30,086 bases of DNA from a virus: IMG/VR virus record IMGVR_UViG_3300036398_001164, positions 1 to 30,086 of that record, one strand, 5' to 3'. The notes beneath the pieces were generated by a model. The model had not been told where the DNA came from. It did no database searches and saw only the letters and a program-made list of their open reading frames with translations. The position numbers were made by a program, and so were the translations under genes. Of the stretch, positions 5,262-22,810 are shown piece by piece (the first letter of the stretch is position 1; each line of letters starts with the position of its first letter).

Positions 5262-5641
5262 CAGAAAGGAGCGCTCTCATCAACAGCGCCACCAATGCTG
5301 GCTGTCGGCCAAGTCTCCATGATTGCTGCCTCCAAAACCTTGTCCGAAGCAACAGTCACACTCTCAGCACGCACCTTGATGGCGGCGCCTGTAGATCCGT
5401 CACGCTTCTGAAAAGTGCTGGTCCCAGTGATGCGGCCTTTCACCGTCACCTGCTTCACACCCTCCAAAGCTGTCCTGCCATCAGTGGTGATGTCATAGGT
5501 GGTCTTGTCCACCGTCTCCCACTCGCCCTGATGGTTCTTCTTGCGAACATCAATGGAAACCTTCAACGCGGTCCCCCAGTCGAACGCCTTAACATCATTC
5601 AACCAGCCAGTCAACTCAACCTGAGCCTCATTCTTGATCAT
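5261..5641 (-). CDS. ssb: Single-stranded DNA-binding protein
   Basis: 126 aa. An OB-fold pattern of strands (VELTGWLNDVKAF; TALKVSIDVRKK; VKQVTVKGRITGTSTF; AAIKVRAESVTV) is followed by a short tail ending DESAPF, which resembles the acidic SSB tip (DDDIPF in E. coli) that recruits partner proteins. It probably coats phage ssDNA and recruits host repair or replication enzymes. The start ATG at 5641 has AGAGGGA upstream. It overlaps the zinc-protein gene by 14 bases. The N-terminal sequence is divergent from bacterial SSB, so the call rests on fold pattern and tail. Confidence 0.72.
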   Translation of the reverse strand: MIKNEAQVELTGWLNDVKAFDWGTALKVSIDVRKKNHQGEWETVDKTTYDITTDGRTALEGVKQVTVKGRITGTSTFQKRDGSTGAAIKVRAESVTVASDKVLEAAIMETWPTASIGGAVDESAPF

Positions 5642-5903
5642 TGCTTTCCCTCTCTATATGACTTGGATTCGTACAATCATTGTGACCGCAACGCCTGACA
5701 CCAGGCATCACAGCCCTCCCCTCATCATCACATGGTGTGATGTCATCCGCAAGAAAGTTTCCATGCCAAGGCAGGCACTTACCCTTCTTGGTGTGAACTG
5801 TCTGCACCTTCTTAGCCCGGCAAGAAGCGCAAAGAATAGTTTTCTGTCTACTGCCACTGAGTTCCCATTCAAAACCGCAGCGCTCACAGTGGATTGTGGG
5901 CAT
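5628..5903 (-). CDS. Zinc-binding protein of a conserved actinophage family
   Basis: 91 aa. It has two CxxC pairs at the N-terminus (CERC, CASC), as in a zinc ribbon, and then the block KGKCLPWHGNF, DDITPCDDEGR, VMPGVRRCGHNDCTNPSHI. The second half matches a motif set seen repeatedly in mycobacteriophage and related phage proteins, whose role I do not know. The Cys/His arrangement in CGHNDCTNPSHI suggests a second zinc site or an HNH-like knuckle without an obvious catalytic histidine pair. It overlaps the genes on both sides, consistent with an early operon. Confidence 0.65.
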   Translation of the reverse strand: MPTIHCERCGFEWELSGSRQKTILCASCRAKKVQTVHTKKGKCLPWHGNFLADDITPCDDEGRAVMPGVRRCGHNDCTNPSHIERESNDQE

Positions 5904-9180: not shown

Positions 9181-9186
9181 TACACT
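9181..9186 (+). promoter_or_regulatory. -10 box for the tmRNA-like RNA
   Basis: TACACT at 9181-9186 is spaced so that transcription would begin about base 9193, the first base of the acceptor stem. A TTAGGG 18 bases upstream is a poor -35. The assignment rests on the spacing and on the use of TACACT as the apparent -10 in two other promoters of this genome. Confidence 0.4.
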
Positions 9187-9192
9187 TAGGGT

Positions 9193-9274
9193 GGGCTTGG
9201 ATGGTTTCGACCTGTCAGCAAACCGCGCAAGCGATCTGATGGGGGCCGGAGTTCGACTCTCCGCAAGTCCACCA
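9193..9274 (+). ncRNA. tmRNA-like RNA lacking the message domain (tRNA-like domain only)
   Basis: This 82-nt sequence folds like the tRNA-like end of tmRNA. The acceptor stem pairs GGGCTTG (9193-9199) with CAAGTCC (9264-9270), including G3-U70, the alanine identity pair, followed by encoded ACCA. GGTTTCGAC follows the 5' acceptor strand, as in actinobacterial tmRNA. The T arm is CGGAG-TTCGACT-CTCCG (9247-9263). CCTGTCAG (9211-9218) pairs with CTGATGGG (9236-9243) as a P2-like helix, capped by a small CGC-GCAA-GCG hairpin instead of the message and pseudoknots. No cloverleaf with an anticodon fits. Alanine charging and binding to SmpB or EF-Tu are inferred, not shown. Confidence 0.7.
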
Positions 9275-9413
9275 CCTAAATTGTGTGCGCGAGCTTGCAT
9301 AAAGTAGCGATTAGCGAGCCTGAAGCGCCCCAAAATGTGCAAATAATGTGCGCTCACACATAACAGCGGAAGCGAACTAGACATCCGGGCAGGCGTGAAC
9401 CTTACAGACCGTC
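9275..9413. other. Non-coding region with repeats after the tmRNA-like RNA
   Basis: No gene with support. It contains TGTGC-AAATAA-TGTGC (about 9336-9351), GCGC arms at about 9325 and 9350, and one arm (ACATAACAG, 9358-9366) of a perfect 9-bp inverted repeat whose partner CTGTTATGT (9425-9433) lies inside the small acidic gene to the right. It may be a 3' extension or terminator of the plus-strand RNA, but no clear U-tract terminator is visible. Confidence 0.4.
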
Positions 9414-21570: not shown

Positions 21571-22758
21571 CTATTGAGAAAGAGCCTTGCGGAAGAAAGG
21601 AAGCCAGTGGTCCTCCCAGACCTTCTCAACATCAAACTGAAGGGCAAACTCCCTGGCTACTGTGGAAGTGTCTCTATCGGCCTTGTATGCCTTCTCAAGG
21701 GCTTCCACAAGGGAGGCGAGAACCGGAATCTGAAAGAAGGCGCTTTGGGGAGCATCCCAGAAAGGCTGTCCGACTACATGGAAACTGTCCTCAGCAATCA
21801 GGTCAGCGGTTGCAGCCCAGTCAGAAGCAATCACCCTGGTTCCACAAGCTTGCGCCTCAATCGTAGGCACCCCGAAACCTTCACCATAGGTTGCCATCCA
21901 CACAACATCAGAAGCGGTATAGATCGCGGCCATCTCAGCTTCACTGTAACCAGTGCGCAGCTCATCCCTGTTAGCGAAAGTCACAGCCTTCTCAGGCACA
22001 CCGCAAGACTTCATGAGAGTGCCAAGGTGGAACCCTCCGACAACTGGGAGCACATCAGCGTGGACATACAGGTGTGAATCCGGGTGGTCTTTGTGGAAGA
22101 TACCGAAGGCGAGGAAGAGCTCCGCAAACCCTTTTCTGTGGACAATGGAGTTTGCTTTGTTCGCTAGGACAGCTGTAACCAGGAACTTGTCTTTGCTTAT
22201 ACCCATGAAGTCGCGAGTCTCCACACCCCTAAACAGGCCGGTAGGTTTGAAGACTTTAGTGTCTACAGCGTGCGGAATATAGTCACCCTCAAAACCTGCT
22301 GCAGCGAGCTGTCGCTGACCATGCGGTGCCATAGCAATCGGAGTCACATTGTCCTTCTGCAAAAACTTCTTCACCAAAGGAGGCATGGTCACATGATCTA
22401 AAGGCACCCAAGAATAGATGGGAATGTCCGTCTCCAGGTCGTTGTAAACCCAAACATCATAGAGAGTCATCATGAAGTGTGGCAGAGTCTCCCGGTCCCT
22501 ACGGTGGTGGTCATGCCACAACTGCATCACATCATCAGAGTAAGGTTTGAACCCTTTAGGGTAGATGGGGATGTCACCGGCTTTGGTCCGGTGTTTGGCA
22601 ATGTAGCCTTCAGTCCCATAGTTGGACAGCACACCCACATGGATCCCATGGCGTTTCATACGCTCCACAAGCATGCTCACCTGCACTGAGTACCCGGTAG
22701 GAAGACCGGGTGAGTTGGATGCGACAGACACAACACCCTTAAGTTTCTCTATAGCCAT
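21571..22758 (-). CDS. GT4-family glycosyltransferase in the head module
   Basis: 395 aa from ATG 22758. The glycosyltransferase GT-B layout is visible: N-terminal VVSVASNSPGLPTGYSVQV with a GT4-like glycine loop, and the C-terminal donor site EGFGVPTIEAQACGTRVIAS (E293 to E301, EX7E pattern), followed by a long C-terminal helix region. It uses a nucleotide-diphospho sugar and transfers it to an unknown acceptor. The position between capsid and connector is not that of a core structural gene; glycosylation of capsid or tail proteins, as reported for some mycobacteriophages, is the best guess. A terminator-like hairpin separates it from the capsid gene. Confidence 0.85.
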   Translation of the reverse strand: MAIEKLKGVVSVASNSPGLPTGYSVQVSMLVERMKRHGIHVGVLSNYGTEGYIAKHRTKAGDIPIYPKGFKPYSDDVMQLWHDHHRRDRETLPHFMMTLYDVWVYNDLETDIPIYSWVPLDHVTMPPLVKKFLQKDNVTPIAMAPHGQRQLAAAGFEGDYIPHAVDTKVFKPTGLFRGVETRDFMGISKDKFLVTAVLANKANSIVHRKGFAELFLAFGIFHKDHPDSHLYVHADVLPVVGGFHLGTLMKSCGVPEKAVTFANRDELRTGYSEAEMAAIYTASDVVWMATYGEGFGVPTIEAQACGTRVIASDWAATADLIAEDSFHVVGQPFWDAPQSAFFQIPVLASLVEALEKAYKADRDTSTVAREFALQFDVEKVWEDHWLPFFRKALSQ

Positions 22759-22773
22759 GCCCCCACAATAGCG

Positions 22774-22810
22774 GAAACCCCCACCAGTCACTAGGACCGG
22801 CAGGGGTTTC
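22774..22810 (-). terminator. Terminator-like hairpin after the capsid gene
   Basis: On the plus strand GAAACCCC (22774-22781) pairs with GGGGTTTC (22803-22810), with CC/GG inside. The same outer stem as the terminator at 12935. The run of T after it on the minus strand is poor, so it may reduce rather than stop transcription, allowing more capsid than glycosyltransferase. Confidence 0.6.

Follow-up and report, generated by a model that had tools for sequence, protein, structure and literature searches.

The 30,086-bp window analysed here, a whole linear IMG/VR record from a tailed phage, carries at positions 9193-9274 on the plus strand a complete tRNA-like domain (TLD) of tmRNA with neither message nor pseudoknots. 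In bacteria, tmRNA frees ribosomes that have become stuck and adds a tag to the incomplete proteins on them. A TLD-only form had been an oddity of mycobacteriophage DS6A, but sequence searches indicate that it recurs as a diverse phage RNA family with over a hundred distinct sequences. The window element is best explained as a phage gene whose product is a stable RNA of about 82 nt, and such RNAs probably serve phages to step in for, or to block, the tagging system of the host.

When the Rfam tmRNA model RF00023 was run against the whole record, the element matched with 49 bits (E=2.9e-20). Over a 351-nt stretch, the model aligned from end to end (positions 1-374) with 40.4 bits (E=5.8e-15), about 303 of its positions being replaced by 12 nt, and the mRNA-like domain with its resume codon and tag reading frame is absent from the alignment. 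This upholds the proposal of an earlier sequence-only reading that the element is a tmRNA cut down to its TLD. That reading had also noted a complete acceptor stem, a T arm and an encoded CCA, and the coordinates it gave for the element are exact. The 5' acceptor strand GGGCTTG (9193-9199), including the pairs G1-C72, G2-C71 and G3-U70, forms 7/7 pairs with CAAGTCC (9264-9270), which is followed by A73 and the CCA (9271-9274), and the T arm CGGAG-TTCGACT-CTCCG (9247-9263) forms 5/5 pairs. The D-segment GATGGTTTCGAC (9200-9211) was assigned by alignment to the D-region of RF00023. Within it, GGTTTCGAC (9203-9211) is present as had been claimed, but it is weak evidence for an actinobacterial type, as the four closest relatives have GGATTCGAC. 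P2 is a short helix of 8 bp, starting with C9211-G9243 and running inwards, with the strands CCTGTCAG (9211-9218) and CTGATGGG (9236-9243). Its P2-like character had been recognized correctly, but its closure is less simple than the GCAA hairpin given in the sequence-only reading: the apical insert CAAACCGCGCAAGCGAT (9219-9235), identical in four relatives, folds into a purine bulge and a small CGC-GCAA-GCG hairpin, giving an asymmetric internal loop with the hairpin inside. This insert stands in place of the tag message and of the pseudoknots, for which 9219-9235 leaves no room. The complete order is GGGCTTG, GATGGTTTCGAC, CTGTCAG, CAAACCGCGCAAGCGAT, CTGATGGG, GGC, CGGAG, TTCGACT, CTCCG, CAAGTCC and ACCA.

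No anticodon loop is present in the element, and it has neither the anticodon arm nor the D stem of a tRNA-Ala. With default settings, cmscan returned no match, scoring the element just under the Rfam tmRNA gathering score of 47 bits, a threshold that lies between the 40.4 and 49 bits of the two other runs, and ARAGORN makes no call at 9193-9274, either as tmRNA or as tRNA. That both programs miss it explains the lack of annotation for such genes. The fold energy of the element is unremarkable (z = -1.93) and uninformative; its reality rests on homology and covariation. It is hardly credible that the element is one piece of a split or permuted tmRNA with its message part elsewhere. Although the permuted-order tmRNA of Tunturiibacter phage Tunturi_3 has the same acceptor sequence and a permuted model gave a weak, partial match at 9246-9310 (E=0.25), the parts in the window stand in normal order, P2 closes on itself within 82 nt, and a relative that lacks the downstream region (L225) keeps the TLD. 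Searches of the stretch and of the whole 30-kb record with RF00023 revealed no second match and no other part of a tmRNA, ruling out a longer or permuted tmRNA in this record. The Tunturi_3 tmRNA itself (PP885686.1, L002:2995-3100) is unannotated and consists of the T arm and CAAGTCCACCA, then a spacer, then GGGCTTGTCACGGTATCGAC.

The genes identified in the record, almost all of them read from the minus strand, comprise terminase, portal, protease, capsid, tail, RecE-like, RepO-like, methylase, RusA and lysis genes. Its closest named phage is Pontimonas phage phiPsal1, the large terminases being 68% identical, and the host is therefore probably an aquatic member of the Microbacteriaceae. The 30-kb genome also has three glycosyltransferase-like genes (515-1177, 1681-2340 and 21571-22791; minus strand), and phiPsal1 likewise has several, adjoining its capsid gene. 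The RNA gene is flanked by an HNH gene and a small gene; the roughly 340 bp in which it lies have no convincing ORF. It is oriented against all neighbouring genes, and no tRNA is nearby. The same site is occupied in four other contigs (L225, L228, L229 and L230), in which the TLD is 95-98% identical to that of the window, the HNH gene 85-86% and the next coding sequence 65-67%; no other block of the locus is as conserved in these four relatives as the TLD. The non-coding stretch just downstream of the TLD (9275-9412) is 91-92% conserved in three of them and deleted in L225.

Relatives of the element proved numerous in phage sequences. In a loose scan of 2.9 million viral contigs (IMG/VR), with only TTCGAC, GTTCRA and ACCA fixed and the acceptor left free, 122 matches were found, 23 of which are true TLD-only elements by acceptor and T-stem pairing, the rest being mostly chance matches or ordinary tRNAs. 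A tighter pattern gave at least 120 matches in the 2.9 million contigs, with variant acceptors giving 13 and 3. The matches listed comprise 106 distinct TLD-only elements, mostly from viral contigs. From a sub-pattern with 22 matches in all, 18 of them already listed, the main type was estimated at about 146, and the estimate for IMG/VR as a whole is about 160 TLD-only elements, a lower bound because elements that do not encode CCA, or that depart from the exact conserved bases, escape the patterns. By comparison, 6 pattern matches were found in bacterial and archaeal genomes taken one per species (84,980 species, 257 Gb), indicating that these are virus genes.

The pair G3-U70 directs charging by alanyl-tRNA synthetase. 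The three pairs G1-C72, G2-C71 and G3-U70 (GGG/TCC) are kept in 23/23 true elements of the acceptor-free scan. Moreover, the G3-C70 version of the tighter pattern, which doubles as a chance control, has no match in the 2.9 million viral contigs, as against at least 120 with G3-U70, indicating that the alanine identity pair is under selection. These sequence patterns are strong evidence for selection for charging across the family, and alanylation of the window RNA is strongly predicted. Covariation was scored in structural register, on those pairs alone that the search patterns leave free. In the T stem, all four such pairs are Watson-Crick in 117/117 unique matches listed, with all pair types used, and the acceptor pairs 5-68 and 6-67 are standard in 107/117 and 106/117, respectively. 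Among 66 non-redundant elements listed, P2 pairs 2 to 7 form in 66, 65, 63, 58, 51 and 46 of 61-66 cases, compared with means of 25-34 in shuffles, and five to six pair types occur at each position. The GAC linker after P2, which the pattern does not impose, is kept in 81 of the 106 elements listed.

Five isolated phages carry intact TLD-only copies that are not annotated as such. In phiPsal1 the gene lies at 5569-5650, before the capsid gene, with the acceptor GGGGCCG/CGGTTCC; this phage and the window phage have a common genome backbone, with the element at different places. The other four are the Streptomyces phages LuckySocke, GiJojo, BRock and pSt2308, whose copies, unannotated or called a protein, are located between tRNA-Val and tRNA-Ser genes. 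The CCA is not encoded in some of the isolated-phage copies. Gene 44 of GiJojo (L243:2499-2741), a hypothetical protein by annotation, shares sequence with the TLD-only RNA gene from its first bases onward and is probably a misannotation. In Streptomyces phage Alone3, a decayed copy with changes in the D-segment and T stem (L249, about 1205-1290) occupies the same position in the tRNA cluster as the intact copies of related phages.

A full tmRNA accompanies the TLD-only element in 1 of 44 viral records, a phage record of 123,582 bp (L030). There, the TLD-only element is found at about L246:587-668 and a full-length tmRNA of 392 nt at L245:689-1080, with an ARAGORN-predicted tag, SPEYRIRLLTNTKW, that lacks the usual AA end. 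In each of the four bacterial assemblies with a TLD-only element, a full tmRNA with an ordinary tag is present too, giving the element something to compete with; in 3/4 of them the acceptor of the full tmRNA differs from that of the TLD-only RNA. Integration of phages in ssrA is common. A relic or an att-site copy of host ssrA devoid of RNA function would fit this habit, which is described for mycobacteria (PMC10654092), but it is very improbable here: an att copy would carry a single end of ssrA and not, as here, the two ends linked through a new helix that covaries, no integrase was found among the 30 window proteins scanned, and the acceptors just mentioned mostly differ within one assembly. 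Neither a relic nor an att copy is in keeping with the TLD as the most conserved block of its locus, and the family covariation is incompatible with drift. A relic or att-site copy was rejected for the family, and in the window both TLD halves are present. The earlier proposal of selection as RNA rather than an att-site copy is supported by covariation in P2, acceptor and T stem, by the invariant G3-U70 and by a TLD more conserved than the neighbouring genes. Of the refuting conditions set by the sequence-only reading, the two that computation can decide, a lack of covariation among relatives and a longer tmRNA built from other parts of the genome, both turned out false.

The interior of P2 shows a recurrent motif. 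Among the 71 non-redundant elements listed, P2 is closed by a short, often UUCG-like loop in 9 and has an A+T-rich loop in 5, while in many of the remaining elements a small CC/GG hairpin comes after a purine bulge. Compared with shuffles, AARRCC occurs inside P2 in 29/71 elements (2.8 expected) and AARRCC followed by GG in 21/71 (0.8 expected). The CAAACCGCGCAAGCGAT of the window is a variant of this type of motif at the equivalent place, and in the Streptomyces phages GAAAGCCGCACGCGGA is unchanged while the surrounding P2 changes. A sub-family (L025, L062, L081, L156, L200, L205 and others) has the loop GTAAAATTAATTTAGC within a freely varying P2; this loop has a self-complementary core and matches no known motif. 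Since many loops begin with UAA, a mini-message consisting of a stop codon was considered and rejected: stop triplets are found in 55/71 elements listed versus 54.5 in shuffles, with none in the window loop, giving no sign of a built-in termination codon.

ARAGORN finds a tRNA in 32 of the 106 loci listed. In 32/32 the closest tRNA shares the strand of the element, and it lies within 300 nt in 20 loci and within 10 nt in about 15. Transcription and processing of the RNA in the manner of a tRNA would lead one to expect such same-strand proximity. G seldom directly precedes G1 (4/103 elements listed). TAnnnT at 6-8 nt before G1 is mildly over-represented (15/103 elements listed), and with so mild an enrichment a general promoter upstream of G1 was rejected for the family. 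A consensus promoter scan of the window found nothing. TACACT (9181-9186, plus strand), kept in all five close relatives, could be a -10 element starting the RNA at G1, although it is only suggestive.

The TLD of tmRNA binds SmpB and EF-Tu and enters stalled ribosomes. By analogy, the window RNA would be charged by the host alanyl-tRNA synthetase, would be bound by SmpB and EF-Tu-GTP as tmRNA is, and would enter stalled ribosomes, where it could add no degradation tag because it has no resume codon. During infection, TLD-only RNA would then compete with host tmRNA for SmpB and stalled ribosomes, lowering trans-translation tagging both through occupancy and through the transfer of nascent chains to it in a reaction that is a dead end or leaves no tag. 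On balance, we lean towards TLD-only RNA as an alanine-charged stand-in that competes, in a broad sense, with host trans-translation. A complete TLD without a message and the rarity of a full tmRNA in the same viral record support such competition; the window gene, with no tRNA nearby, an orientation opposed to its neighbours and only a weak promoter candidate, speaks against it, and the phage with both forms would be odd for a pure inhibitor. The decoy or inhibitor of host trans-translation suggested by the sequence-only reading is plausible, and this kind of RNA has a precedent in the 'TLD only' tmRNA of DS6A (PMC4131195, PMC11915505).

According to these two papers, tmRNA is strongly inhibited by a DS6A-like TLD-only molecule whether or not this can be charged, with titration of SmpB as a possible cause (PMC4131195), and in E. 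coli the endogenous tmRNA is inhibited by the DS6A form (PMC11915505). The proposed titration would suit a sponge that binds SmpB or EF-Tu off the ribosome, and the SmpB-like domains of CoCoNuT systems, predicted to target RNA (PMC11090510), would suit a decoy for a host RNA-targeting defence that recognizes tmRNA or SmpB. We regard a sponge or decoy of this sort as improbable, and a pure sponge would have no need for G3-U70, which never changes. Inhibition in the cited work is independent of chargeability, yet the charging identity is strictly kept here, hinting at more than SmpB titration.

The strict G3-U70 also keeps alive a tagless rescue, in which the alanylated TLD with SmpB would take the nascent chain, and drop-off, peptidyl-tRNA hydrolase or release factors would make recycling of the ribosome possible; ribosomes would be freed without marking the truncated proteins of the phage for destruction. 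Peptidyl transfer requires the alanine identity whereas SmpB titration does not, some mitochondria retain a message-less tmRNA together with SmpB and plastids have such RNAs as well (PMC11915505), and a phage with both forms is easier to reconcile with such a scheme. However, there is no clear route to ribosome release without a codon, stop triplets in P2 are at the shuffled level, and in the literature consulted the sole reported experiment on such an RNA is tmRNA inhibition (PMC4131195), so that we consider this rescue possible but doubtful. A bolder reading, to which we give slightly less than even credence, is that the DS6A molecule and its relatives form one family of alanine-charged, message-less tmRNA mimics. 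On this reading, their retained chargeability (no G3-C70 in 2.9 million viral contigs) would mean that they engage in an actual reaction on stalled ribosomes, a tag-free takeover of trans-translation aided by the P2 motif, which would contact a partner.

Nearly all bacteria have trans-translation, which is a drug target. The TLD-only design recurs in growable Streptomyces and Pontimonas phages with strong evidence for selection as RNA and for alanine charging, so that the question of whether blocking or replacing rescue tagging by means of an RNA is routine among phages can be put directly to the test.

Phage tmRNAs of the TLD-only kind were already known; the literature consulted has a single phage example, the DS6A molecule credited to Mao et al. 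2009 (via PMC4131195 and PMC11915505); the main text of a 2025 tmRNA database paper, which surveyed RefSeq viruses, names only DS6A. What appears to be new is the diversity of the family, the pair statistics, the absence of G3-C70, the tRNA-cluster context and the P2 motif. The DS6A and window genes are alike in amounting to barely more than a TLD and in their predicted partners, a likeness drawn from the published description of the DS6A gene. DS6A, however, is a single reported case in a mycobacteriophage, whereas the window element has four close and many distant relatives and sits in a small phage related to Pontimonas phage phiPsal1. The message-less tmRNAs of organelles (jakobid and other mitochondria; Mallomonadaceae plastids, about 65 bp) are also reduced to the TLD (PMC11915505), but they are products of reduction, the mitochondrial ones alongside a nucleus-encoded SmpB, whereas the window element belongs to a phage and coexists with an intact host system. 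Full-length phage tmRNAs (Bxz1, Wildcat, Bacillus phage G and Melnitz) are likewise phage ssrA genes with a TLD, that of Wildcat being the most highly expressed lytic gene of its phage (PMC7474061). They keep, or are predicted to keep, the tag reading frame that the window element lacks. Bacterial tmRNA (RF00023) shares with the window element the G3-U70 acceptor, the D-segment, the T arm, the CCA and the base of P2, and differs from it in having pseudoknots, a resume codon and a tag.
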